Shown: piece after piece, positions 3,043 through 17,671 of the stretch
Numbering within the stretch: the stretch's first letter is position 1
How the letters are laid out: each line of letters begins with the position of its first letter
Source: Methanosphaera sp. ISO3-F5
GTDB lineage: Archaea; Methanobacteriota; Methanobacteria; Methanobacteriales; Methanobacteriaceae
Length of the DNA: 64,000 nt
Assembly: GCF_034480035.2 (NCBI RefSeq)
Contig: NZ_CP118753.2
Coordinates: forward strand, 1,521,426-1,585,425
Direction of reading: 5' to 3'
Position numbers and translations under genes: made by a program
Notes under the pieces: model-generated
What the model saw: only the letters and a program-made list of their open reading frames with translations
What the model was told of the DNA's origin: nothing
The model's database searches: none

Positions 3043-5367
3043 ATGAAAACAAAAACAATAAGACCGAAAAAGGCAAGGAGTCAAGGGGAAATATTACCTC
3101 ACATTGACAGATTAACAGAATACAGTCACTTCGAGGACTACCATACTAAAAGAAGCAATGGAACAGATACTAAGTTCAAAGACACCACAGTCAAGACAAT
3201 AAACCTAAACGGCAACTGGATAGATGTAGGAATTAGCTTAAAAAGTATAACACCAACTCCACCAGAGGAATGGGTTGCATTACATCCTGGAACAATAGTT
3301 GTACATTTATACAAACTAGAAAACGGAGAACCAGTCGCAAACCTTGCTAATGAGAAAATAGACATTTATATACGAGGCGAATGTAACACAGTAACAACTA
3401 ATGCTACTGGTTTTGCTAGTGTATCCTATGAACCAACACATCTCGGAAAGCACGAGTACAGCATAGAATACAACGGTAACAGTAAAAAGGGATACAAACC
3501 ATGCGACCCGATAACTGGAAGTTTCAGTGTTAGAAAACTCAAAGTAAAAATAACTCATGTATATGATCTCACTCAACAAATTAATTCAAATATTTACATT
3601 TTCCCACACGTACAAGATGAGTTTGATAATGATATGGATGGAGTATTGGAATTGTATCGTGAGGGAGTATCTATTGATGTTGCAACACTAGCAAATGGTC
3701 AATGTAGTTTCATACAAAACTTTAATTTGCCTAATGTGTATGATTATCTTCTAGAATACAAGGGGAATAGTTTAGTTGATAGTGCTACTAAGGAATTCAC
3801 AATTACAGTAGTAGGATTAGATGCTGCAATTATAACAAGAACAACGAATTATGAAGTGGTACAAGGTAATACTCTTGAATTTAAGGTAAGAGTTGTGGAT
3901 GCTAATGAGCATGATATCCTTGTAGATGGAGGAAGTGTACAAATAAGTGAGAATAACATTGTAATTGGAACATATGACCTTGACAGTAACAGAGAAGCCA
4001 TAATCCAGTATACAAACAACACCTTAGGAAATCATGACCTGAAAATAGATTATATTGAAAAAGCAAACGGTATTTACATGGATACGAGTAAAACAGTACA
4101 TGTGAATGTCATTGAAAAATATACTCCTCATATTGTTCGTAGAGCAACAACATACACTACCGAGAGTGGCAAAGGTGTAGAATTAAGGGTAAGGGTATTA
4201 AATGATGATGATGAAGCTGTAGATAGTGGAACAGTAACTTTCAAAGTAGGTGATGATGTATACGGAAGAGTTGCAGTTGATACAAGCAGTGGAGACAACA
4301 AAGGATTAGCAACCTTCACTTTCGTTGAAGATTATATTGCTAGTTACTATGTGGATATTGTGTATAGTGGAAGCAAGTTATACAAGTCAGTTAGCACTCA
4401 AGTAGAGGTAACGGTTGGAAAAATAACCACAGAGATTAACATTTCCGACGGTGATATAATTGATTATATTACAGACAGTGGAAGCAAACAGATCAAGGTA
4501 ACAAATGCAAACAATAACGCAGTAGTCAATGAGGGAAACCTTGTCCTACAACTTAAACAGGAAAAACAGAATGTAACACAGACAATCGGAACATATAATC
4601 TTGCAAATACAACTGGAAACCTAACAATAAATAGACAGAACATCAACTTAGATTCATTATTCACTGCAATGAAAAATACAGGTTACCTCTATTACACAGG
4701 TTACACACTAATAGCAACATATAAGGGAACAAGCAAATACAAAGCAAGCAGTAAAGAAAAACCGTCAATGAACCTTCATGTCCGCAGAAGTGGAATATAT
4801 GCTGTACCAGTCATTCAAGATAGTGCAAACTACAATATAAGCAGTGCATATCCAACAGTACCTGACAATTACTATGGTGCTTATACTATCAGAGTAGACC
4901 ATGACGACACTAACGGTATCCTTTCAACAGTAATAGTAGGAGGAAGGATATATAATGGTGGTATTAATACTCCTGCAACTCTTGGAACAGTCAAAAAAGG
5001 TCAAACAATCTACTTTGTAACAGAATACAAAGCATTAAGACTGCATGATTCAGATAAGAATAAAACAGAAACACAAATTGAAAACTATGTATATGAGGAC
5101 ATTGGAGGACTTAATACTGAATTACATTACAAAATAAATGATGGAAACGAAACAGACACTGCAAATGCTTACATAAATGGAACTTCCTCTTTATACGATG
5201 GTCCTTTGTATACAAAATTCACAGTACCTAATACTTGTCAAGTAGGAGATACAATACAGTTAATATTCTACATTGGAAAAAATGCAGGATATTACCATTA
5301 CTTAGAAGGTGAAGGTAGTGATTCATTTGGTTACAGGTACAAAGTTCAATTCGAGGTGGTTGAATAA
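3043..5367 (+). CDS. Prophage tail-associated protein with tandem Ig-like repeats
   Basis: This 774-residue protein sits between the tape measure and the Dit-like gene. Residues 1-75 form a charged leader. Residues about 80-590 hold several roughly 95-residue beta-sandwich repeats of bacterial Ig-like type, with recurring patterns such as 'GNTLEFKVRVVDAN' and 'GKGVELRVRVLNDDD'. Such repeats are also common in the adhesin-like proteins of methanogens. Residues 600-774 form a different beta-rich C-terminal domain. There is no signal peptide or membrane anchor, which suits a virion structural protein better than a host surface protein. A GGGGGTGA site lies 9 bases before the ATG. The stop overlaps the next ATG by one base, so translation is probably coupled. 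Role inferred: tail or baseplate adhesin. Confidence 0.65.
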   Translation: MKTKTIRPKKARSQGEILPHIDRLTEYSHFEDYHTKRSNGTDTKFKDTTVKTINLNGNWIDVGISLKSITPTPPEEWVALHPGTIVVHLYKLENGEPVANLANEKIDIYIRGECNTVTTNATGFASVSYEPTHLGKHEYSIEYNGNSKKGYKPCDPITGSFSVRKLKVKITHVYDLTQQINSNIYIFPHVQDEFDNDMDGVLELYREGVSIDVATLANGQCSFIQNFNLPNVYDYLLEYKGNSLVDSATKEFTITVVGLDAAIITRTTNYEVVQGNTLEFKVRVVDANEHDILVDGGSVQISENNIVIGTYDLDSNREAIIQYTNNTLGNHDLKIDYIEKANGIYMDTSKTVHVNVIEKYTPHIVRRATTYTTESGKGVELRVRVLNDDDEAVDSGTVTFKVGDDVYGRVAVDTSSGDNKGLATFTFVEDYIASYYVDIVYSGSKLYKSVSTQVEVTVGKITTEINISDGDIIDYITDSGSKQIKVTNANNNAVVNEGNLVLQLKQEKQNVTQTIGTYNLANTTGNLTINRQNINLDSLFTAMKNTGYLYYTGYTLIATYKGTSKYKASSKEKPSMNLHVRRSGIYAVPVIQDSANYNISSAYPTVPDNYYGAYTIRVDHDDTNGILSTVIVGGRIYNGGINTPATLGTVKKGQTIYFVTEYKALRLHDSDKNKTETQIENYVYEDIGGLNTELHYKINDGNETDTANAYINGTSSLYDGPLYTKFTVPNTCQVGDTIQLIFYIGKNAGYYHYLEGEGSDSFGYRYKVQFEVVE

Positions 5368-8252
5368 TGGCAACTGTTAAAAAGTATTCACAGAAAATAG
5401 AAATAACAGCTGGATACACTTGTGGAGGAGATGACAAACAATACAAGTGCTGGGGAGGACTAGACAACCTCAAAACAGCGAATGGACTTGCAACTTGTCA
5501 TGGTAGCGACAACCTAATAGCAGGAATAAACGGTACATACAAGCAACCAGCACCATTAACTCTGAATAATTTTGGTTTTGATTTGTCCGACAATTACAGT
5601 GTAACCAAAGTGGAATTACATTATAAAACACAGAAGTTCATAAATGGAGGTTATTATCCGGACATTGGAGGAGCCACAATAAAACTTCTTGGTACTAATC
5701 AAGCAAACAAAACAGGAAAGGCAGTAAGTCAAAACAAGATAGAAGATATAATAACATGGACGGGAGTAACAGTAGCACAGGTCAATAGTACACAATTCGG
5801 TGTACAAATTGCATTTCCTCAGAATGAGAGTACAACTCCAGGTTATATTAACCTTGAAGATGTTTACCTCCTAGTTTATTATGAGGATAACGGTGCAAAA
5901 ATAACACTTGAATCAAGTTTTAGCAGTAATCCAGTTATAGTAGGAGAACAATTTGAATTAACATGTACAATTCGGAAAACTAGTAATGCAGCATATAATC
6001 GTACCACTTACATTGATCTACCATTGGGAGTTAATCCCTCAGCATTAGGGACTGCTGATGGTAGTGTAACAGTGAGCACAGTAAAATTTGAAAACTATAC
6101 ATTCAAAAGATTAACTTGGAAGCATAACATGCCTGAAGGTAGTCAAACTGATTACTTATCCTATGTTTGTAAAGCAGTTACTCCTAGTGATGATTTCCAA
6201 CCAGAAAAAAACAAAAACCGTCCGAAGCAATGTATTATAACAGATGTAACAACGAAAATAAGCACTACTAACTATTTAACAATCAAGGATATATCAGTAT
6301 CAGTATCCACAGATTTGTACAAGAATAAGGTATCACTCACAGCAGGGAAAGAATACAAAGCATATGCAACAATCAAAATAGTAGACCCTTCACAGACAAA
6401 CAAAGCATTATGGATAGGATTAACCAATGGTGCAACCCTTAACAATAACAATCTAAGTTTCACTGGTTATCTTGCAGATGGATACAATACAAGTAATAGC
6501 AAATACTGGATACGATTTGAACAGAACAGGGACGAAATGACTATCAAAATACCTTTAAAAGTTGTAGCACCAGAATCCGGAACCTATAAAATGACTTTAT
6601 TTGTAACCAATACAGGTCAAACAAAACATTTAAGTCCTGATGTAACAGTGGATTTCCTCGCTCGTGGTGCAGACCTCGGACAACTAGCATTCACTCGTAT
6701 AAGAGTACCTGAAGTCTATACACAGAACATGGGAGATGGAATACCCTATACTTTCGGAAGTCAAGTCAAGTACATTCTCAAAAACAATAAGTACGGAGTA
6801 GAAGATCACGGGGACAATCTAAGAATAGGAGTATATAATAATAGTGAAGCAATAGCAGCAGATGAAGATGAATTTGTAAGTGAAATTATCTGGTGCGACA
6901 AGATGGCAACCACTAAAAGTGAAGAACGAAGTGTTAAATTCACTTATAATGCAGAATATCCATTGTACTTAGTGTATAGTCATGATTATAGTGAGGATGC
7001 TGTTAATCCTTTTGTTACAATGAATTTTAGTGAGCCGTGGCTCGTGGAAACAGGTTATTATCCGACAACACCTATACGAGACCTCCGTATTTATCCAGTA
7101 ATGGCACTTTGTGGTAACTCTAAGTATTGTTGGGGAGAATTCACACCTAGCATAGAGAAAACCGTTCCAGTTGCTTGCTATGATTGGAACGATGGAGGAA
7201 TATTAAAACAAGATATAGGTGTACTGGGAATAGAAGTATTGTTTGATTACAATGTATCTGAGGAGGTTACTTGTCTCGTTGAATTATATCTTGGTTGGAG
7301 TGTAAGAGGAACCAGAGACATCATAATATCCAAAGGGAGTGGAACAGCACGTGCTGGTGATGCTTATGACTTGTTTGGTTTCAAACCTTCAGATTTTGTT
7401 GGAAGAATGAACGCACTACAGGTAAGACTTCAAATATTTAACCAAGATAGCAGTAAACCAAAAATAGAAATCAATAATCTACGAATGAATGTTCGGTATG
7501 TTAATCCTATCAAATGTGGTTATGGATTGTCAGTTGATGGTGAAAAAAGCCAATATTACGGGTTTGTTGTGACTGATGTAGAACACAATAGTGGTACAAA
7601 AAATGAAAGAACATTGTATCAAGTTCCAGGAACAGACAACACTATCATTAATCGTTTGAATGTGGAAAGTAAGGATATAAGTATTAAGATTGTAGTGCCT
7701 GAATGCAATCTCAAGAATACATTTTACTTGATTGACAGAATTGTTGATCTATTCACAAATGAACGAGAATTAAACAGTAACAAACCAATACTTAAAAAAT
7801 TAGTATTTGACCACATTCCAGACCGAGAATTCAGATTTGTAAGAGTAGATAGTTTTGATGACGAAATCAAAGGAAACAGTTATTATGCAAAAATTAAACT
7901 AGAAATACCCGATGGCACAACATATGCAATACAAGAAACAATTACTGGAGCACATGGACAAGCAAGGAGTACAATATTCATCAAACCAGTTATAGTATAC
8001 AAGGCAGATACAGCAGGAAAACTAGTTATAACTGAGAAAAATCTAGGACAGGAATTTATTGTGAATAATAATAAGATCAAGGAGGATAGTATTATCACTA
8101 TTGATTCTGAGAATAGGACGGTTATGCTAGGAAATACTAATATAAGCAGTAGTGTTGATTATAATAGTACGTGGTTCCGCTTGAAAGGTGAATATGCTTT
8201 TAGCAGTACCACTGGGACTGTTCGTAGTGTATCATTTAATGTAAGGAGGTAA
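5367..8252 (+). CDS. Oversized distal tail (Dit-like) protein with carbohydrate-binding-like and Ig-like domains
   Basis: Dit proteins form the ring that joins the tail tube to the tip and are usually about 250 residues; this one has 961. Residues about 715-961 look like the Dit/sipho-tail family: they begin with a 'GYGLSVDG...YYGFVVTDVEH' stretch and continue with beta-rich segments and a 'PDREFRFVRVDSF' region. Residues 1-175 resemble the jelly-roll modules found in phage and surface proteins. Residues 180-430 contain two Ig/DUF11-like beta-sandwich modules, and about 560-700 another jelly-roll. The start overlaps the upstream stop, with GAGGTGG just before it. The extra domains probably bind the cell surface. 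The Dit assignment comes from fold-level resemblance and gene order. Confidence 0.6.
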   Translation: MATVKKYSQKIEITAGYTCGGDDKQYKCWGGLDNLKTANGLATCHGSDNLIAGINGTYKQPAPLTLNNFGFDLSDNYSVTKVELHYKTQKFINGGYYPDIGGATIKLLGTNQANKTGKAVSQNKIEDIITWTGVTVAQVNSTQFGVQIAFPQNESTTPGYINLEDVYLLVYYEDNGAKITLESSFSSNPVIVGEQFELTCTIRKTSNAAYNRTTYIDLPLGVNPSALGTADGSVTVSTVKFENYTFKRLTWKHNMPEGSQTDYLSYVCKAVTPSDDFQPEKNKNRPKQCIITDVTTKISTTNYLTIKDISVSVSTDLYKNKVSLTAGKEYKAYATIKIVDPSQTNKALWIGLTNGATLNNNNLSFTGYLADGYNTSNSKYWIRFEQNRDEMTIKIPLKVVAPESGTYKMTLFVTNTGQTKHLSPDVTVDFLARGADLGQLAFTRIRVPEVYTQNMGDGIPYTFGSQVKYILKNNKYGVEDHGDNLRIGVYNNSEAIAADEDEFVSEIIWCDKMATTKSEERSVKFTYNAEYPLYLVYSHDYSEDAVNPFVTMNFSEPWLVETGYYPTTPIRDLRIYPVMALCGNSKYCWGEFTPSIEKTVPVACYDWNDGGILKQDIGVLGIEVLFDYNVSEEVTCLVELYLGWSVRGTRDIIISKGSGTARAGDAYDLFGFKPSDFVGRMNALQVRLQIFNQDSSKPKIEINNLRMNVRYVNPIKCGYGLSVDGEKSQYYGFVVTDVEHNSGTKNERTLYQVPGTDNTIINRLNVESKDISIKIVVPECNLKNTFYLIDRIVDLFTNERELNSNKPILKKLVFDHIPDREFRFVRVDSFDDEIKGNSYYAKIKLEIPDGTTYAIQETITGAHGQARSTIFIKPVIVYKADTAGKLVITEKNLGQEFIVNNNKIKEDSIITIDSENRTVMLGNTNISSSVDYNSTWFRLKGEYAFSSTTGTVRSVSFNVRR

Positions 8253-8256
8253 CAGT

Positions 8257-11200
8257 ATGAGTATTATACCGAACATTATAATCTTGAATGAAGATGAAAA
8301 AATGATACGATGGCTTGACCCTGACCTATGCAAAGTAGAAGAAAAAACAAGCCTGAACACATGTAGAAAAATAACACTCACCTATCCTTACGAAAACAAC
8401 CTCATAGAAGAAGCTGAAAAACAATGGTACGAACAAGGAAACAAAATATACATTCCTAGTATTAATGGAATTACCAGCTGCCTTTATGTTATCAACACAG
8501 AATACGAAATAGACTTCTGGGACAAAAATACTGTTACAGTAGAAGCAGAAGAGGTATTAACGGAACTGAATTATGATGTAATCAGTTTCCCCTCTGCTTC
8601 TGTTTTTGATGTGAATAAAAAGAACCTTGATGAATGGTTTGGAGCTTATTATGACATTGGTACAATTGATACATTAAATGCAGGAAATAAGAAAGTATCA
8701 CCAGAGGGAATAATGACTCGTATGAGTTTACTTCGTATGATAGAGGAGCAAACAGAACGAGTATTCTTCACAGAGTACACTAATACTGGAAATACTGTTA
8801 AAAGAACATTAAATCTTAAAGATACAGATAAGGAAGTATTTATAGCTCCTACTGACATATTAGACCTTAATTATAATCTTGACAGCTTAGAATTCACTAA
8901 GAGTGAAGAAAACACTTACAATGCAATAGCACCAATATTCAATGTTAATAAAAGCACTGTAAGTGTAGAAGAAATGTCAAATCTTGAAAGTAGTGATGTA
9001 TCTAGTCTTATTGTATCAAAAGCAGGAAACAATACTAAGGGAAATAATGCAAACACTAAACAAATTAAGGAAATATTAGAAGCCATAGCATCATCAGAAG
9101 GAGCAGAAAATACAGGCACAGGTTCAAGTACATCAACTATTCCTACTTTAACCAATCAGAAAACTGGTGATGAATTATTAGAGGAATGGCTTGCTTATGA
9201 GGTGCAAACTGGTGAAGAAATCCCTATGATAATTAAGGAAGATAAGGATGGGAACTTGGTTAAAACTGCTACTTGGAATGCACCTTTTACTAAGAGGTCA
9301 GGTGATTTGCATATGTACTATGAGGGAGATTCACCCTCCGAATATAACAGAGTACATATATATAATCATGAGAAGGACAACGGTAAATTCAAAGTCTGTA
9401 CGAGTACCACTAGTGAGACACAGATGGAAAGTGTTTATAATACCTTAGCAACAAAACTCCTTGGAAAATTAGCTCCCAAATTTGAATTAAAAATTGAAGT
9501 GAAAGACATACAACAATTACTGGGATTACAGAACCTGCAATACAAGGTACATCAAAAATTAGAAGTAAGAGTACCCAACTTTAACTATTATGTTCCCTGT
9601 AGGATAACAGAAACAACTAAGAACCTCCACCTCCCTGGTGAGAATAAGATCAAGATAGAAACAGATGTAACAAGCATATACAAACAATATACTAGCAAGA
9701 TAACAAGCGAAAATGTAATAATCAGTACAAAAGACCTAATACCAGAAATAGGAGGAGTATTAACTGGTGGAGATGACACAGTATTAACCAACAAGAACAT
9801 AACTATCAGTATACGATTAGTTAAAGGGTATGATGAACACACTACAGAAGAAAACAAAAATGTACAACAAAGTTACTCCAAATTTGACCCAGAAACTGAA
9901 ACATACTTATTTAGTAATTCAGAGATTGAAAGACTTGGTAAAGTAATGAGAAACACGAAAATAACTTCAGAAGGTGTTGTCGACAACGATTACAGAGTGA
10001 AAGATGTGCAAGGAAAAATATACAAAGTACCTGTGGATTGGGCTATTGCATTATATTATGCACGAAACCAATTATATATCAATAATGAGCAAATGAGTGA
10101 AGGTTCACAGGAAGAAAAACTAGGACAAGGATACTATGATTCCACAATAGAATGCCACTGGTTCTCTAATGTTAAAGACGAAATAAGAACTCAGGCAAAC
10201 TATGAAGCATCCAAGAAATATTATGTTGCATGGTTTGTATATCTTGCAGAGCTTGAAAGAAATTTCTGGAAACAGAAAGAATTAGGTGTTAGGACACGAC
10301 TTTGTAGTAGTGAAGCTCAGAATGGTCCTACTTGTCTCCCTGCGAGTATGAGTAATGCTACAAGTTATTTCAGAAATTATTATCCAGAATGGTATCTTGC
10401 AAAGAAAATGGGAACATCTGAAGGAGGAACTTATCGTGGTGATGCTGAAAGAGTAATGGAAGAATTAGGATTTAAAATAACCAGAGTTGAAGCAACAGAG
10501 GACAATGTCAAAAATTACCTTAAAAATAATCAGGTAATTAGTTTAAGTATTAATCCAGCCAATCTTGGTGATGATTACTACCAAAACTATTATAAAAAAA
10601 CAAACGAGGGCTCACATGCAATTATACTCTCAGATTGGTATACTCACCATACTGTAAATGACGGTGCTTTGATGGTTAGAGTATATGATACGAACCTTCC
10701 TATCTATAATCCATTGTATGCTTATGAACCTACGAAAACTCTTATTCCTATGCAGACGGAGTGGATGAAGTGGAGTAGTGTAAAACAAGCAATTAATGCT
10801 TTTTATGATTCTACAGGTGGTCGGTGGTTCAATGCTACAGGAGATAGGAAGTCCATGACTATTATTGAAAACACTTCCAAGAATATGGCAAGTGTTACAG
10901 AAATTGAAGCAAAAACAGTTACAACCACTTATTTTGATCCGAGCCTTATGGAGTACAAATTCAAGTTTGATATTGTGAGAACTGCAATACAGGAAACAAT
11001 ACAAAGCATATTGGATAATGACCTAAACACAAACATTATGAACATGTATACTACTGTTATTGCAACTGATGGAAAAGAGTATGAAATAAGTATGCACTAT
11101 CTGCGAGCAATAAGTTATGCTTATATGTACTCCTTTATGGGAACAAAGGATAAGAGTAGTAATAAGACAGTTACAGTATCTGAAAAAAGTAATACTTTGA

Positions 11201-11823
11201 AGTATTATGAACATTTTAACACGGACCTTGAACGAGTAGGAGTGTATGATTGGTTCAGTCCTTGTAAGGCAGAGAATACTAATTATATGACAGGATATGC
11301 AGTTGCTACAATATTATTTAACTTAGGTTTGGCATATAGTCCTAATGACTTCCTAACGAGTGGAGATTCATTAGACAGTATTGCTACGATGATAAAAAAC
11401 AAAGCAACGAAAAATAATAGTTCATTCCTAAATACTTGGATTGTAAGTAACACGAAGGCAAACATCAAACAGTATCTGGGAAAACAGTACCGAGATAATT
11501 ATAATTACACACTAATGTTCGCTTATGCTAGAGGCAATTCCTTAAATAATACAAGCACTCATAATTCTAGTTATTATCCTGTCCTCTTATATAGTGTTGA
11601 TGGTGAAAATATTGAATACATGAACATACTAGGAACAGGAAATAACATAAAAGACAATTACAACACACTAACAAACAATGCAACAAACAATCCATACAGT
11701 ACAACCACTATAGACAACATGGTAACAATGATAAGTAATGCGAAAAACATTGCACCGTCCGGAAGTAGCAATCAAATACTTGTAGTATCGTATTTCACTA
11801 AGAAACAACTGGAGGCAGAATAG
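8257..11823 (+). CDS. Tal-like tail hub protein with embedded cysteine peptidase domain
   Basis: This 1188-residue protein follows the Dit-like gene, as tail-associated lysins (Tal/prophage endopeptidase tail family) do. Residues 1-480 resemble the baseplate-hub part of Tal proteins. Residues about 590-820 form a papain/C39-like domain with probable C693 in 'NGPTCLPAS', H787 in 'GSHAIIL' and D811 in 'VRVYDTN'. Residues 880-1188 are unrecognised. The start is fixed by an AAGGAGGT site eight bases upstream. The inferred role is local cutting of the host pseudomurein during DNA entry. The catalytic triad is read from motif spacing only, so the peptidase call is moderately secure and the substrate is inference. 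Confidence 0.6.
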   Translation: MSIIPNIIILNEDEKMIRWLDPDLCKVEEKTSLNTCRKITLTYPYENNLIEEAEKQWYEQGNKIYIPSINGITSCLYVINTEYEIDFWDKNTVTVEAEEVLTELNYDVISFPSASVFDVNKKNLDEWFGAYYDIGTIDTLNAGNKKVSPEGIMTRMSLLRMIEEQTERVFFTEYTNTGNTVKRTLNLKDTDKEVFIAPTDILDLNYNLDSLEFTKSEENTYNAIAPIFNVNKSTVSVEEMSNLESSDVSSLIVSKAGNNTKGNNANTKQIKEILEAIASSEGAENTGTGSSTSTIPTLTNQKTGDELLEEWLAYEVQTGEEIPMIIKEDKDGNLVKTATWNAPFTKRSGDLHMYYEGDSPSEYNRVHIYNHEKDNGKFKVCTSTTSETQMESVYNTLATKLLGKLAPKFELKIEVKDIQQLLGLQNLQYKVHQKLEVRVPNFNYYVPCRITETTKNLHLPGENKIKIETDVTSIYKQYTSKITSENVIISTKDLIPEIGGVLTGGDDTVLTNKNITISIRLVKGYDEHTTEENKNVQQSYSKFDPETETYLFSNSEIERLGKVMRNTKITSEGVVDNDYRVKDVQGKIYKVPVDWAIALYYARNQLYINNEQMSEGSQEEKLGQGYYDSTIECHWFSNVKDEIRTQANYEASKKYYVAWFVYLAELERNFWKQKELGVRTRLCSSEAQNGPTCLPASMSNATSYFRNYYPEWYLAKKMGTSEGGTYRGDAERVMEELGFKITRVEATEDNVKNYLKNNQVISLSINPANLGDDYYQNYYKKTNEGSHAIILSDWYTHHTVNDGALMVRVYDTNLPIYNPLYAYEPTKTLIPMQTEWMKWSSVKQAINAFYDSTGGRWFNATGDRKSMTIIENTSKNMASVTEIEAKTVTTTYFDPSLMEYKFKFDIVRTAIQETIQSILDNDLNTNIMNMYTTVIATDGKEYEISMHYLRAISYAYMYSFMGTKDKSSNKTVTVSEKSNTLKYYEHFNTDLERVGVYDWFSPCKAENTNYMTGYAVATILFNLGLAYSPNDFLTSGDSLDSIATMIKNKATKNNSSFLNTWIVSNTKANIKQYLGKQYRDNYNYTLMFAYARGNSLNNTSTHNSSYYPVLLYSVDGENIEYMNILGTGNNIKDNYNTLTNNATNNPYSTTTIDNMVTMISNAKNIAPSGSSNQILVVSYFTKKQLEAE

Positions 11824-11824
11824 T

Positions 11825-13978
11825 ATGACAGTACAATATCCTAACAAGCTCAACAAGAAACGAAAAGTATACTTCACAATGGACAATACAAGTAACAAAA
11901 ACTCAACAATTAGGAACACTGTAATAACCAAACTACGAAATGCTGGAATAAATGTAGTGTCAAGACCTGAGGGTAAAGAGATAGGACCTAATTGTTACTC
12001 AAGAACTTTCAGAGACCTAGAGGAAGATGGAATAAAGGATATAATCTTAATAGGATTAGTGAACGGTGTAGACCCTACCAACCTCCGTGAAGTATCATTC
12101 ACCAATTATGATTGGCAAGGAACTCGTTTCAGAAACTTAGGAAATGATGTTATTTTTGCAGCATTTTATGATAGTTGTGACTTTACACGACCAGACGGCA
12201 CATGTTACAATAAAGTGAAAATGCGAAGTCCTACTACTGATGTTCCCACCGGAGGATATTTTTACAACCTGAAAAAGTTTTGTGAAGATAATAAAATTTA
12301 TGCAGTGAATCAGAGTAGTAACCAACATCGTAACCCAGAACGAGCAGATTATACTGGTGAATTGATTGCACAGAGAATCATTGAATTGTTTGATGATGGC
12401 ACGGGGAACACGAACACTAATGATAACAATACAGATACAAACATAAAAAACCCAGACCCTGAAAATCCCACAATAACACCAGCCACTAATACTACAACAA
12501 CCAACACAGATGGAACCACGAAAACAATAACAACAAGGACAATAACACAAACATATACAACTCCTCATTATGAAAAAGTAATCCGAGCAAAAACAGACAG
12601 AAACGGTGCATTCCACATACTCCCAGAGTTACCATATAAGGGAGAGTATACAGCTACTATGAAATTTGCAGGAGACAAAGAACACAGTAGCAGTACAAAG
12701 ACAATACACATCTACAATTACAGTGATAGTAGTCAAGTATTCAAGGAAAGATTAATACAAACAAAGATAACCACGAGTTACAGTGATGGTACAAGCCACA
12801 CAGACACAAACGGTACAACACCAGACAATAAGCATGTAAAACGAGTAATTACAACCGAAACATATAACAATGGAAAACTAACAAAGACAGAGAAACGAAC
12901 AGTCTTTGTAGATAATATAATTCGTGAAGCACCAGAAACTAATACAAATACAACAACCACGACAACAACCACTACACCAACAGACCCAACAGTAAATCCT
13001 AGTCCAACACCGTTACCAAATACTCCAACACCAGTTACTAATGTAGAAAAAGGACACCCATTCCACAAAGTTATACCTCCAGTGAACGGAGTCCCACAAA
13101 TAGCTGCAATGCAGATTGGAGACAAAAACTTCGTATTTGTAGATACTAACAGGTCATATAATTTGACTTATGCTCAGTTCAGAGCAGTATATGACAGAGA
13201 CAGTCAAACAATGCAATTTAATAATTATAAACTAAGTAATTACACAGCATTTGAAAGTGAGGACACAAACACGTGGAATGTATGTGAAAGGCAACAATGG
13301 AACAGTGTAGTAGAAAGCATACATTTTTACAAGGTAAATCATAGACGAGGAGAATGGCCTCAATCATATGTAATTGATTTCCAGAACAAACGGACAAAAT
13401 GCGGAGATACATGGGTAGAATGGAAGAATAGTAGTGGAAAAACTACTATTTGGTTCTGTGCTGACAAACAAAATGGAGAATATGATTGTGGACCTACGAG
13501 CTTAAGTGTTTGTACTCAGGTATTAATGCACTATCACCCTGAAGTTGATCTACCAACAAGAAGTCCTGGCCAGCTAAGGGATATGTTCAATGAACGAGGA
13601 TTCAGTGCTCACAATAAGGGTGGAATGAGTACTGCATTATCAGAGCTAGATGCGGGGAGACCGTGTATATGGCATATTGACTTCCATTATATTGCATTAA
13701 CTATGAGGAGCAAACACAATCAGCAAATTCTTGTAGCAAACAGTGCAGGGGATAGAACCACTTCTAAATATACTTATTATGGGAAACTAATGACTGGTTG
13801 GAATCCATATACTAATTTGAATGGTTCAGCTACTGGTGCTCATACTTTTGTAAAATTAAACTGGAAAATTACTGAAGAATGGAAACAGAAGATCAATACA
13901 TTCTTTAAAAGTATGGGCGGAGCATGGGAAAGACCATTCGCAGATGAAGGAATAAGAAAAGGAACAGGAAATGGTTAA
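11825..13978 (+). CDS. Multidomain prophage protein with C-terminal C39-like cysteine peptidase
   Basis: 717 residues. Residues 1-190 form an unrecognised globular domain with several Cys. A Thr/Asn-rich linker follows, then an Ig-like module (about 245-300), then a Thr/Pro linker (about 371-405). Residues about 415-717 form a papain-like fold with C555 in 'YDCGPTSLSV', H621 in 'DFHYIAL' and N639/D643 in 'NSAGD'. This matches the C39-like pattern of Cys, His about 65-100 residues later, and Asn or Asp about 20 beyond it. GGAGG precedes the ATG, which begins one base after the upstream stop. The 'NSxGD' motif recurs in the endolysin-like gene at 14613. Likely a tail-spike or second wall hydrolase; the substrate is not proven. 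Confidence 0.55.
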   Translation: MTVQYPNKLNKKRKVYFTMDNTSNKNSTIRNTVITKLRNAGINVVSRPEGKEIGPNCYSRTFRDLEEDGIKDIILIGLVNGVDPTNLREVSFTNYDWQGTRFRNLGNDVIFAAFYDSCDFTRPDGTCYNKVKMRSPTTDVPTGGYFYNLKKFCEDNKIYAVNQSSNQHRNPERADYTGELIAQRIIELFDDGTGNTNTNDNNTDTNIKNPDPENPTITPATNTTTTNTDGTTKTITTRTITQTYTTPHYEKVIRAKTDRNGAFHILPELPYKGEYTATMKFAGDKEHSSSTKTIHIYNYSDSSQVFKERLIQTKITTSYSDGTSHTDTNGTTPDNKHVKRVITTETYNNGKLTKTEKRTVFVDNIIREAPETNTNTTTTTTTTTPTDPTVNPSPTPLPNTPTPVTNVEKGHPFHKVIPPVNGVPQIAAMQIGDKNFVFVDTNRSYNLTYAQFRAVYDRDSQTMQFNNYKLSNYTAFESEDTNTWNVCERQQWNSVVESIHFYKVNHRRGEWPQSYVIDFQNKRTKCGDTWVEWKNSSGKTTIWFCADKQNGEYDCGPTSLSVCTQVLMHYHPEVDLPTRSPGQLRDMFNERGFSAHNKGGMSTALSELDAGRPCIWHIDFHYIALTMRSKHNQQILVANSAGDRTTSKYTYYGKLMTGWNPYTNLNGSATGAHTFVKLNWKITEEWKQKINTFFKSMGGAWERPFADEGIRKGTGNG

Positions 13979-14258
13979 TATGGTTAATTGGATATGGAAG
14001 ACCACACACGAGGCAGAACAAGAACCCTCACAAAGAACATGGATTAAAGGACAAAAAAGACAACAAGAACAAGAAAAACCAACCGATAAACAAATTAAAG
14101 AATACATACAAGAATACCTACATAACACGATACAACTAAGACACCTCATCAAAAATAAGGACATACTGTCTCCCAATGGTCAAAAAAGATACATGAAAGT
14201 AAAAGAGAGACAAAAAGAATTAAATAAAATACTAATTGAAAATGGAGTGAAAATATGA
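13971..14258 (+). CDS. Small hydrophilic helical prophage protein
   Basis: 95 residues, very rich in Lys, Gln and Glu, predicted mostly helical, with no transmembrane segment and no recognised domain. It overlaps the end of the peptidase gene by 8 bases, and its TGA overlaps the ATG of the next gene, so it sits in a tightly coupled operon. A second in-frame ATG at 13980 could be the start instead. Its position just before the lysin is where many phages encode tail-completion, chaperone or holin-related proteins, but the lack of membrane helices argues against a holin. Function unknown. Confidence 0.55.
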   Translation: MVNMVNWIWKTTHEAEQEPSQRTWIKGQKRQQEQEKPTDKQIKEYIQEYLHNTIQLRHLIKNKDILSPNGQKRYMKVKERQKELNKILIENGVKI

Positions 14259-14623
14259 AAAAAACAAAAACAAACAACAAGCCAATAGTGGCAGTAGATT
14301 ACGACGGAGTATTAAATCAATACGAGGGGTGGAAGGGAGAAAATCATCTCCCCCAGCCAATCAAAGGAGTTGAACAGTTTTTACAGAAATTAAGTGAGGA
14401 GTATAATGTAGTAATCTTCACTTGCAGAGACAATAAGAAAGTAAGAGAATGGTTAAGAGAATATGAGCTTGATAAGTATGTGTATGCAGTAACTATAACA
14501 AAGCCTCAAGCAGTAGCATACATAGATGACCGTTCTATTCGTTATGATGGTAGTTATAGTGAAGTTTTAGACCAATTAAGTGGTTTTCAAACATGGTGGG
14601 AGGAAGATTACGATGACATTTGA
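14255..14623 (+). CDS. HAD-superfamily phosphatase-like prophage protein
   Basis: 122 residues. Motif I is near the N terminus ('VAVDYDGVLN', two catalytic-type Asp). The motif II region is 'VVIFTCRD', and the C-terminal 'VAYIDDRSIRYDG' matches the acidic motif IV. The small size and lack of a cap domain resemble compact HAD proteins carried by many phages, some of which act as polynucleotide or nucleotide phosphatases. The ATG overlaps the upstream TGA, and GGAG lies upstream. Its place inside a tail/lysis operon is unusual. The substrate cannot be read from the sequence. Confidence 0.7.
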   Translation: MKKTKTNNKPIVAVDYDGVLNQYEGWKGENHLPQPIKGVEQFLQKLSEEYNVVIFTCRDNKKVREWLREYELDKYVYAVTITKPQAVAYIDDRSIRYDGSYSEVLDQLSGFQTWWEEDYDDI

Positions 14624-15641
14624 TTGCAGTAAGATTAAATTAAAGAATGGAAGTAGTGGAACAGAAGTAAAAGAATTACAAGAATTATTAAGAGGGTATG
14701 GTTGTTATGAAGGTAGTATTGATGGCAAGTTTGATAGTGTTACTAGTAATGCTGTTAAAGAGTATCAGAGAATCCTAGGACTAACTGTTGATGGATGGGT
14801 TGGTAGTGAAACCTGTAAGTCACTACACCAGTATCAATCATTATCTCAGGATTTGAAAAAAGGCAGTAACAATGTATATGTGAAGTTAGTACAAAACCGA
14901 CTAAAACAACTTGGTTATTATACTGGAACAGTTGATGGATTATACGGTACACTCACCTTTAATAGTGTGAAACAATACCAAGCAAAACACAATTTATTAC
15001 AAGATGGAGTAGTGGGCAAGGTAACATACAAATCATTACTCACTAACCAGAACACTAATAGTGGCACAAATAACAATCGTAGCACAACCAGTAATGGAAT
15101 ATACACCAACACTCACCTATGTGAAAGACGAGGAGGAGATTGTGGAGGCCAAATAACAGGTTATCATTGTGCATGCTTCTCCATACAACAAGGAATCCGA
15201 ACATTTGGAATAACTGGTTACTCACAAAGAACCATCGGAGGATATGCAGGAACCACAACTGCCGGAACCGGTCACTGGGGAATAGAAACCGCCCTAGCCA
15301 AAATAGCAAAAAATGAAGGAATCAAGCTAAAAGTAACATGGAAAAACCTATCAGACCTAGGCAGTACACAAAAAGAACAATACAAGAAAATAGGAGAAAT
15401 AATAAGCAGTCCTAACAAGTTTGCATTCATTCACCTACTCTACCGTAACCGTTACGGCCACTACGAACACATAAAAACAGTAAACACCAACACTAGTGGA
15501 TTAATTATCCGAAACAGTCTCGGTGACAAGTGCAATAGTCCCGCCTACTGTGGATATAATGAGAGCCGTACTATGAGCACGGAGACAAGTTACATACGTG
15601 GCATATCGCAGAAAAGCGTGTGCATCGTAGAAAAAATATAA
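14613..15641 (+). CDS. Endolysin-like protein: two peptidoglycan-binding domains and a cysteine peptidase
   Basis: The start at 14613 is chosen over the in-frame 14580 because GGGAGG lies about 10 bases upstream; the gene then overlaps the HAD gene by 11 bases. The 342 residues contain two PG_binding_1-type repeats (about 5-65 and 75-140, each with a 'DG.. G..T..AV..YQ' pattern), an Asn/Thr linker, and a papain-like domain with C186 or C188 ('YHCACFS'), H283 ('YGHYEHI') and N301/D305 ('NSLGD'). Methanobacterial viruses lyse cells with pseudomurein endoisopeptidases, which are cysteine enzymes, so this is the best lysin candidate here. Assignment to MEROPS C71 is not claimed, because the Cys-His spacing looks more like C39. 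Confidence 0.7.
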   Translation: MTFDCSKIKLKNGSSGTEVKELQELLRGYGCYEGSIDGKFDSVTSNAVKEYQRILGLTVDGWVGSETCKSLHQYQSLSQDLKKGSNNVYVKLVQNRLKQLGYYTGTVDGLYGTLTFNSVKQYQAKHNLLQDGVVGKVTYKSLLTNQNTNSGTNNNRSTTSNGIYTNTHLCERRGGDCGGQITGYHCACFSIQQGIRTFGITGYSQRTIGGYAGTTTAGTGHWGIETALAKIAKNEGIKLKVTWKNLSDLGSTQKEQYKKIGEIISSPNKFAFIHLLYRNRYGHYEHIKTVNTNTSGLIIRNSLGDKCNSPAYCGYNESRTMSTETSYIRGISQKSVCIVEKI

Positions 15642-15664: not shown

Positions 15665-15952
15665 ATGAATGAAGAAACACTACAAAAACTAATAACCACC
15701 TACCATGACAACAAAGCAGACATCGAACTACTACAACAACACCTACTCACCATCGAAGACCACATCACACAAGAACTAATGGCAGAAAAACTAGAAAAAG
15801 CACAACAAATCGTAAACAGACTATACACACAAAAACAAGACCCCATCCTCATAGACGTACAAGTCGAAATCAATGAGTTAAGGTACAAGTATGACATCAC
15901 AGACCCTAGAGAAATCATTAATTATGACAATGGGAAGGGATTTGTTCAATGA
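15665..15952 (+). CDS. Small coiled-coil prophage protein
   Basis: 95 residues from the ATG at 15665, chosen because TGGAGG at 15651-15656 is correctly spaced; an upstream in-frame ATG at 15620 lies inside the lysin gene and lacks such a site. Residues 1-60 form a probable amphipathic coiled coil (Leu/Ile heptads with Gln, Glu, Lys). The C-terminal part is short and charged. No membrane helix and no recognised family. As the last gene before a terminator-like hairpin it ends the prophage late operon. Function unknown. Confidence 0.6.
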   Translation: MNEETLQKLITTYHDNKADIELLQQHLLTIEDHITQELMAEKLEKAQQIVNRLYTQKQDPILIDVQVEINELRYKYDITDPREIINYDNGKGFVQ

Positions 15953-16173: not shown

Positions 16174-17490
16174 TCATAAAAATGCATTTCGAGAATCCCA
16201 TCTTTCAAGCTTCAAATTTAGTCTAGATAAAAATCCACGTAATGTTTTAAATTTATTTTTTAAAGATTTCGGTGCAAGATCACCAAAAATACGTTCAATC
16301 CAATTACTAGTACGTTCAATAAAACTATCTTCAAGAAACATAGTTAAATAACGAGAATAAGGACGAATCTTTTTATCAATAATCTCATTAATAACATCCG
16401 GAAACTCTTCACGCCTACCAGAGAGATTATCCAATATATCTAAAACTTCAAATCTATTGTTTGATTCATAAATTTGATAAATTTCTTCTAAATATTTTTT
16501 ATATTCCTTATGAGTCTTTTTTGAGATATTGTTCTCTTTTACATGATTATATAAGTATTTGTTGATGTTTTGTTTGGTGTGGAATTCACAAAATTGGTGT
16601 TTGAATCCTAAATCTTGTATTGGTTTTCGATAAGCAATATGTAAGTCAGTTGTAATTGCTTTACGGGGTTGATTAAGAGTAGCATTTCGTAAGAAATTAT
16701 AAACTTCCGTACTATTTTCTTCTTCAACTATTTTATAATCCACCAATGTTCTATGATGTACATCAAATAATGCAAAGAAATAAACATAATTATCACTAAT
16801 TTCATCTATTTTAACCCATAAACTATCAAACACATAATATCCAGAATAAGTTTCCAAATTAGACTCATATTTAATAATATAATCGACTATAATGTCCTGT
16901 ACTTCCTGATAAGATACGCATACATTATGTATTCTTTTCATGATCTCCTGTATTCTACGAACGGGAGTACCACAAATAGCATAATAATTCTGTATTATCT
17001 TCATAATACGCTTGGAAACACTGAATTTTCTATCAACTACACTGCTAATATCTGCAGAAAAACCTTTACCACAATTACGACATTCATAACGTTTAATACG
17101 AGCATCAACATTACCAAAAACATTTAAAACAAGCTTTTTAGGATAATAACCATCTTCAACAACATGTTTAGAACCACAATGAGGACAATAACTCCTAAAT
17201 TGAGTAAAAACAACACCATCTTTAGTTTCAAAAACTTTCAAATTATCCGCAATCCGAGATAGCTTAGATTTCACATAATCCTCAGCACAGGAAACTGGAA
17301 GATCATCATCAAAATAATTATCCAAATAATCTACAATCAAATCTTTACAATCAACAGATAATAAATTTACACATTCATCATCAGTATTATCTTTTCTAAT
17401 AACATCAACCAATGGTTCACTAAAAAAACCGTCAAGTTTAAGTTGATGACCAACATAATTAATAATAGGAGAGTTATTTTGTACTTTCAT
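16174..17490 (-). CDS. DDE transposase with N-terminal zinc ribbon
   Basis: 438 residues. Residues about 105-150 form a zinc ribbon: 'CPHCG', then 'CRNCG' about 35 residues later. A helix-turn-helix-like stretch follows at 155-210. The catalytic region has Asp near 223 ('FDSLWVKID'), Asp near 281 ('TTDLHIAYR') and Glu near 399 ('NWIERIFGDL'). The long D-to-E interval with a helical insert resembles the Mutator/IS256 style of DDE domain rather than the DD35E type. A 'CEFHTKQN' motif lies between them. GGAGAG lies about 10 bases before the ATG. The gene fills the element and shows no stop or frameshift. Confidence 0.85.
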   Translation of the reverse strand: MKVQNNSPIINYVGHQLKLDGFFSEPLVDVIRKDNTDDECVNLLSVDCKDLIVDYLDNYFDDDLPVSCAEDYVKSKLSRIADNLKVFETKDGVVFTQFRSYCPHCGSKHVVEDGYYPKKLVLNVFGNVDARIKRYECRNCGKGFSADISSVVDRKFSVSKRIMKIIQNYYAICGTPVRRIQEIMKRIHNVCVSYQEVQDIIVDYIIKYESNLETYSGYYVFDSLWVKIDEISDNYVYFFALFDVHHRTLVDYKIVEEENSTEVYNFLRNATLNQPRKAITTDLHIAYRKPIQDLGFKHQFCEFHTKQNINKYLYNHVKENNISKKTHKEYKKYLEEIYQIYESNNRFEVLDILDNLSGRREEFPDVINEIIDKKIRPYSRYLTMFLEDSFIERTSNWIERIFGDLAPKSLKNKFKTLRGFLSRLNLKLERWDSRNAFL

Positions 17491-17548
17491 AATATAATAT
17501 CTCTCCTTTTTACTATAAAAACTTTATTATCGCTTATTTTTTAAAACA

Positions 17549-17562
17549 CGCCCCAAGGGGCG
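17549..17562. promoter_or_regulatory. GC-rich palindrome in the transposase leader
   Basis: CGCCCC, AA, GGGGCG forms a strong inverted repeat in otherwise very AT-rich DNA, about 60 bases upstream of the transposase start. It could be a hairpin that blocks read-through or translation, or a transposase-binding site. The role is inference. Confidence 0.4.
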
Positions 17563-17640
17563 AATAAAACTAGTAAAAATTAACATTTAAAAAGAATTAA
17601 AAAAGTATTACTTTTTTGCTAAAAAGTAACTGAAAATTCA

Positions 17641-17663
17641 TCACCACACATTCTGACTACATC
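17641..17663 (-). repeat. Right terminal inverted repeat of the IS
   Basis: Inverted partner of 16137-16159. The matching target duplication TTTATTTA follows immediately at 17664-17671. The remaining stretch to pycA (17672-17839) is AT-rich and I see no gene in it. Confidence 0.8.
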
Positions 17664-17671
17664 TTTATTTA
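17664..17671. repeat. Right target-site duplication of the insertion sequence
   Basis: Exact copy of the TTTATTTA found at 16129-16136 on the other side of the element. Confidence 0.75.

Follow-up and report, generated by a model that had tools for sequence, protein, structure and literature searches.

To our knowledge, only a handful of endolysins, PeiW, PeiP and PeiR, underlie what is known of pseudomurein-degrading enzymes, and the passage of tailed viruses through the archaeal pseudomurein wall has been little studied. PeiR, from the M. ruminantium provirus phi-mru (PDB 8z4h, 8z4n), is a C39-type pseudomurein endoisopeptidase that cuts Glu-gamma-Thr-pNA and lyses methanogens (PMC6189367). 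PeiW and PeiP are pseudomurein endoisopeptidases of family C71 that cut a Glu-Ala type of link, while PeiR cuts a Glu-Thr type. Among other viral lysins, that of MSTV1 matches C71 (PF12386, 1.4e-9) and that of Drs3 joins binding repeats to a transglutaminase.

In phi-mru and vir075 a papain-superfamily enzyme on Tal is accompanied by a C39 lysin of the PeiR type, which makes a papain-superfamily tail enzyme plus a lysis enzyme an existing pattern among methanogen viruses; a literature search returned no statement of this pattern. The Tal proteins of vir075 (L006:8001-11096) and of the M. ruminantium provirus (L107:4499-7852) end in a transglutaminase-like domain, a feature that has apparently gone unremarked. 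Among bacterial viruses, Staphylococcus phage phi11 supplements its endolysin with a pair of virion lysins, Gp44 (Tal) and Gp49 (PMC5380687). In M. smithii and M. stadtmanae, group-III adhesin-like proteins of the host have been described that combine pseudomurein-binding with transglutaminase domains (PMC11532034).

The locus described here encodes three domains of the same superfamily as PeiR. PeiR is a single stand-alone lysin, whereas here PeiR-like domains lie in a Tal-like tail-tip protein (Tal) and in a protein of 717 residues (the 717 protein), both with a PeiR-like alpha/beta, putatively binding part ahead of the peptidase, and the lysin comes from another branch. The Tal domain is Transglut_core in phi-mru and vir075 but C39 in this case, and no third enzyme of the 717 type was found in the stretches examined of those two viruses. 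The predicted function as pseudomurein endoisopeptidase and the Cys-His-Asp arrangement are shared with PeiW and PeiP, but Tal, the 717 protein and the lysin show no match to C71. Phi11 likewise combines two virion lysins and an endolysin in one virus, yet it attacks the murein of a bacterial host with unrelated catalytic types, whereas here one fold occurs three times. The group-III adhesin-like proteins resemble the 717 protein and its host relatives in their Ig-like parts, wall-binding part and C-terminal papain-superfamily domain; they are host-anchored and of the transglutaminase type, whereas the viral 717 protein is of the C39 type and has no signal-like N-terminus. A papain-fold Tal domain and a papain-fold lysin thus already occur together in methanogen viruses, and what is new is the presence of three related peptidases in one archaeal virus, two of them probably virion-borne. 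The statement in the original prediction that one phage rarely needs three such hydrolases was too strong, as phi11 has three lysins and vir075 and phi-mru each pair two enzymes.

The tail-tip and lysis module

The window, i.e. the whole 64,000-nucleotide stretch of DNA that was analysed, corresponds to positions 1521426-1585425 of a 2.68-Mb Methanosphaera genome. It contains, in series, genes for a tape measure protein (TMP), an Ig-like protein, Dit, Tal, the 717 protein, a 95-aa ORF, a HAD-like protein, the lysin and a small gene (Table 1). The span originally assigned to the three peptidases, 10030-15641, proved correct. Tal and the 717 protein are encoded within the tail-tip order TMP-Dit-Tal-717, the gene position of virion-associated lysins, and the Tal-position protein of Drs3 matches Prophage_tail. 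The HAD-like gene was retained in five viral relatives at 47-67% identity, always between the 717 gene and the lysin. We interpret these genes together as a tail-tip/lysis module belonging to a siphovirus-like provirus of a Methanosphaera species; it would provide two virion-associated pseudomurein peptidases for entry and one endolysin for exit. We assign this explanation, taken jointly, a probability of roughly 0.7; within it the enzymatic activities, the location of the 717 protein on the virion and the bond specificities are predicted.

Table 1. Coordinates in the window of the module genes and of their predicted domains and residues
Feature	Position	Strand	Basis
Dit (distal tail protein), tail-tip module marker	5367..8252	+	SPP1_Dit 1.3e-8; phrog_202 6.6e-7
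Tal-like tail-tip protein, 1188 aa	8257..11823	+	directly 3' of Dit; N-terminal half resembles Tal-position proteins of vir075, Drs3, MSTV1
Tal aa ~550-613, alpha/beta segment ahead of peptidase	9904..10095	+	E-H-E-E-H in model
Tal C39/PeiR-like peptidase domain, aa ~680-830	10294..10746	+	Peptidase_C39_2 7.3e-4; PeiR 3.2e-5; Foldseek PeiR 2.6e-9
Tal predicted catalytic residues	C693 10333-10335; H787 10615-10617; D811 10687-10689	+	conserved 8/9, 9/9, 8/9
Tal C-terminal module, aa 880-1188	10894..11820	+	secondary-structure order same as aa 540-879 in model
717-residue protein	11825..13978	+	directly 3' of Tal in all five complete viral relatives; no signal-like N-terminus
717 N-terminal Rossmann-like domain	11825..12394	+	conserved in viral relatives; also in Methanosphaera proteins with signal-like N-termini
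717 aa ~444-518, E-H-E-E-H segment ahead of peptidase	13154..13378	+	model; layout as in Tal; no Pfam match
717 C39/PeiR-like peptidase domain, aa ~545-717	13457..13975	+	PeiR 1.7e-17 as profile; best fold matches C39 peptidases
717 predicted catalytic residues	Q549; C555 13487-13489; H621 13685-13687; N639 13739-13741	+	conserved 90/90
HAD-like gene between 717 and lysin	14255..14623	+	HAD_2 6.4e-4; same position in five viral relatives
Lysin, 342 aa from ATG 14613	14613..15641	+	ribosome-binding site before 14613; two PG_binding_1, 3.8e-35; lysis PHROGs
Two PG_binding_1 repeats of lysin	14655..15035	+	Pfam
Lysin catalytic domain, aa ~176-342	15138..15638	+	22oc 'P210' 1.3e-28 single, 3.5e-60 as profile
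Lysin predicted catalytic residues	Q180; C186 15168-15170; H283 15459-15461; N301 15513-15515	+	conserved 68/68, 68/68, 68/68, 66/68
Small gene 3' of lysin	15665..15952	+	kept at that place in five viral relatives

To the right of the small gene the module is followed by a transposase and then by host-type genes. In the DNA to the left of the window, an integrase-like ORF adjoins an apparent ribosomal protein L3 gene and is followed by more virus-like ORFs (named by eye). A search for attachment sites gave just one 15-base T-rich match and the exact sites were not found, nor did comparison with a same-species genome resolve an empty integration site. The transposase (16174-17664 of the window) borders the provirus on the right; about 64 bases at 17600-17664, likely an insertion-sequence end, have four or more copies in G117, a genome of the same species.

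Three C39-like peptidase domains

A predicted papain-like domain of the C39/PeiR type is present in all three proteins, with structural models available for Tal and 717. The residues originally named were all found in Cys-His-Asn/Asp order at their positions and, apart from the alternatives C188, D305 and D643, are conserved across relatives; the order lies far beyond chance, and a fortuitous arrangement was ruled out by this conservation. In alignments, C693 of Tal, C555 of the 717 protein and C186 of the lysin all coincide with PeiR C90, which is replaced in the PeiR-C90A structure. A Gln stands upstream of each Cys, at a distance of five residues in Tal and of six in the other two proteins, as would be expected of an oxyanion hole of the papain type, and the combination of this Gln with the Cys-His-Asp/Asn order, a C39 trait, occurs in all three proteins. 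The predicted models of Tal and 717 matched PeiR and C39 peptidases, i.e. a papain-like fold, and the lysin was connected to this fold by profile. PeiR was matched by Tal at 2.2e-8 and by the 717 profile at 1.7e-17, and the lysin profile returned 'P210' (3.5e-60). Of the three families put forward for comparison, C39 in its PeiR form was borne out, whereas Pfam searches of the window proteins at E<=1 gave no match to C71 (PF12386) for any of the three and none to a C70 family. Among characterised proteins PeiR stands closest to Tal and 717 in sequence, and closest to Tal in predicted fold as well.

Relatives of Tal at 29-44% identity retain the active site: Q688, C693 and D811 each occur in 8/9 and H787 in 9/9, the sole exception being a visibly decayed copy. 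In the AlphaFold2 model of residues 540-1188 (pLDDT 74.9) a helix starts at C693 and a strand at H787, and D811 closes the strand that follows. Foldseek analysis of this model returned PeiR as the best match (E 2.6e-9, TMt 0.75), followed by the peptidase domains of C39 transporters, and the alignment covered the whole of PeiR, its binding part included. Against the curated Pfam C39 profiles (PF03412/PF13529) Tal scored 20.6 vs 24 and 18.8 vs 22 bits; since such scores fall below the cut-off, we describe the proteins as C39-like and do not file them as C39. According to the model, the segment ahead of the peptidase probably resembles a pseudomurein-binding repeat; as Tal, the 717 protein and the lysin gave no match to Pfam PMBR (PF09373), we infer its binding role from the alpha/beta layout, which in the Tal and 717 models resembles that of PeiR.

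The C-terminal module of Tal, absent from the original prediction, was also considered. It preserves C1003 in 8/9 relatives and Y1107 and N1123 in 9/9, and has no His at the place expected for a peptidase, so that the modelled region may represent a second, decayed binding-plus-peptidase unit. Its assignment as a fourth papain-like domain was suggestive, yet it was set aside, as hhalign gave 8% and C1003 falls in a low-confidence loop of the model.

The 717 family keeps Q549, C555, H621 and N639 in 90/90 homologues, and its match to PeiR rose from 0.089 as a single sequence to 1.7e-17 as a family profile. In the AlphaFold2 model (pLDDT 75.5, mostly >85 across the C-terminal domain) the catalytic residues are placed as in Tal, and the best Foldseek matches were C39 peptidases (E 2.8e-4, prob 1.00). 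The protein itself had no match to PF03412/PF13529; the corresponding protein of the relative L109 passes the PF03412 cut-off (31.1 vs 22 bits). From its modelled layout, the segment at aa ~444-518 is probably wall-binding. The N-terminal domain had only weak Foldseek fold matches, neither it nor its host relatives had a Pfam match, and the attempt to name an enzyme for it was dropped on these grounds.

Lysin residues are numbered from ATG 14613, a start codon preceded by a good ribosome-binding site. Q180, C186 and H283 occur in 68/68 members of the family and N301 in 66/68. Where alternative residues had been proposed, C186, N301 and N639 were those retained, while C188 (16/68), D305 (15/68) and, in the 717 family, D643 (24/90) were not. 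The catalytic domain matched 'P210' (PDB 22oc) with Cys and His aligned, and a literature search did not yield the origin or function of this protein. PeiR was a weak second with the lysin profile, and with a value of only 0.078 homology to PeiR is weak for this protein. No match to PF03412/PF13529 was found, and profile comparison points to a papain-like C39 fold. A first scan of genome contigs for the lysin gave no match.

Profile-profile comparison clearly linked the 717 and lysin families (97.3%, E 1.9e-11) and brought their Cys, His and Asn columns into register. The similarity behind the 'NSxGD' end motif that the original prediction ascribed to both is hence real, but only its Asn is conserved within each family. 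Tal and 717 were in turn related at 91% (E 1e-6). A recent duplication within the virus is not favoured as the source of the three domains, since they fall into separate families, each with relatives of its own, and an old common origin is likely.

Recurrence in related viruses

Relatives of the module were collected by IMG/VR scans and ORF mapping. The order Dit-Tal-717-HAD-lysin was found in five rumen viral contigs, followed in each by ORF110. All three active sites are intact in four of them (3300028833_000219, 3300021387_000014, 3300021255_000119 and 3300031867_005805). In the fifth (3300031760_000133) the C39 domain of Tal (L110:1481-4861) has lost its Gln, Cys and Asp together, with the 717 and lysin sites intact. 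A further contig, 3300026549_000111, encodes 717 and lysin and a Tal that has no C39 domain; the loss of the site in one relative and of the domain in another suggests that some lineages can do without the Tal enzyme.

Partial sets were observed in 3300028833_004140 (Tal and 717, then contig end) and in a provirus of another species, G116 (Tal beside 717, then contig end). In 2802429591_000003, which matches genome G108, Tal-C39 and 717-C39 occur with a lysin that joins PG_binding_1 to a PeiR-type C39 domain. Contig 31 of G108 (L099, L100; IMGVR 2802429591_000003) bears two related tail/lysis modules in opposite orientation, both with Tal, 717-type and PG_binding+C39 lysin genes, one Tal being split inside its C39 domain.

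Within the DNA read, the full set was present in just a handful of the ~40 viral contigs that hold the lysin domain, and is thus uncommon but recurrent. Related sets are kept at about 35-65% identity; some of the contigs are closely related, with two almost identical in 717, and so not fully independent. These data describe a modular set that few viruses with this lysin domain carry but that is maintained, and its recurrence in related rumen viruses suggests that it is real and probably functional.

Proposed roles of the three enzymes

The original suggestion of action at entry, at the spike and at lysis appears plausible, coming from an archaeal provirus tail/lysis module with three distinct domains. 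The Tal peptidase at the tail tip would open the wall locally for DNA injection. The front parts of the 717 protein would hold the host surface while its C-terminal peptidase cuts wall cross-links, and the lysin would bind the wall through its PG_binding_1 repeats and break it in the last stage of infection. The Cys of each enzyme would attack a peptide or isopeptide bond, aided by the His, the Asn/Asp and the upstream Gln.

The relatives of the 717 protein bear on where it acts. Its C-terminal module is present in 57/139 genomes of the family, Methanosphaera assemblies among the named ones, mostly in host-encoded proteins of ~525-890 aa; those scanned contain Ig-like domains and C39 matches, and 4/6 host copies examined have signal-like N-termini, in contrast to the viral ones. 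Relatives of the N-terminal domain occur in Methanosphaera proteins with signal-like N-termini (L233:5929-8139, L235:2155-2943). Viral 717 copies form one clade apart from the host copies with 99% local support, for which reason a recent capture of the domain from the present host is not favoured. From its gene position the 717 protein is probably, beside Tal, a further peptidase-bearing component of the tail tip or spike, and as such would reuse host-type surface modules.

A more elaborate scheme can be offered only tentatively. Methanosphaera viruses would possess a staged set of three pseudomurein peptidases that share one superfamily and differ in the bond or layer they attack. The second of them would be a host-like wall-remodelling enzyme carried on the virion and built from two modules also found in host surface proteins, and Tal would combine an active binding-plus-peptidase unit with a decayed one in tandem. 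The different bonds cut by PeiR and by PeiW/PeiP make differing bonds for the three enzymes possible.

The occurrence of both the N-terminal and the peptidase modules in host proteins also fits a different role, in which the 717 protein derives from a host surface protein and is made in the infected or lysogenic cell as a factor that alters the host wall, for example to keep out other viruses or to assist lysis, with Tal and the lysin acting as proposed above; a gene lying between Tal and the lysin is compatible with this as well. We consider this unlikely, because the viral protein lacks the signal-like N-terminus of several host copies, every complete relative has its gene immediately behind that of Tal and MSTV1 encodes a tail-repeat protein (PTR 1.2e-6) at the same place.

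That the lysin is the only active wall enzyme, with the Tal and 717 domains persisting as structural or binding relics of peptidases, would agree with the Tal copy that has lost Gln, Cys and Asp and with the decayed appearance of the Tal C-terminal module. A relic would not keep its active site in 90/90 homologues, as in 717, or in 8/9 at the divergence seen for Tal, and we regard this possibility as very improbable.

The lysin repeats are of the bacterial PG_binding_1 type, although encoded by an archaeal virus. Among the lysin ORFs with this catalytic domain 18/68 carry PG_binding_1 and many others PMBR-like repeats (the loci being partly redundant), and vir080 gave a weak PMBR match. Use of the lysin, and perhaps of the other enzymes, as weapons against bacterial peptidoglycan would accord with these repeats and with the bacteria-killing peptidoglycan hydrolases made by some archaea, but is scarcely credible given the position in a tail/lysis module, the relation to PeiR, the usual joining of the same catalytic domain to PMBR-like repeats and the survey of those archaeal hydrolases, which found only two homologues in pseudomurein-making classes (PMC12352652).

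With two virion-associated enzymes and an endolysin as the preferred explanation, one virus offers a pair of candidate enzymes for entry and one for exit, all with exact predicted catalytic residues, so that entry and exit could be separated with three point mutants. The relative with the decayed Tal site provides a natural comparison for the Tal enzyme. The domains also widen the set of candidate lytic enzymes for Methanosphaera, of interest for gut and rumen methane. Among host proteins, 717-type C39 proteins are encoded in tandem in Methanobrevibacter (L106:8477-12285, L108:8473-12150) and are candidate wall-remodelling enzymes.
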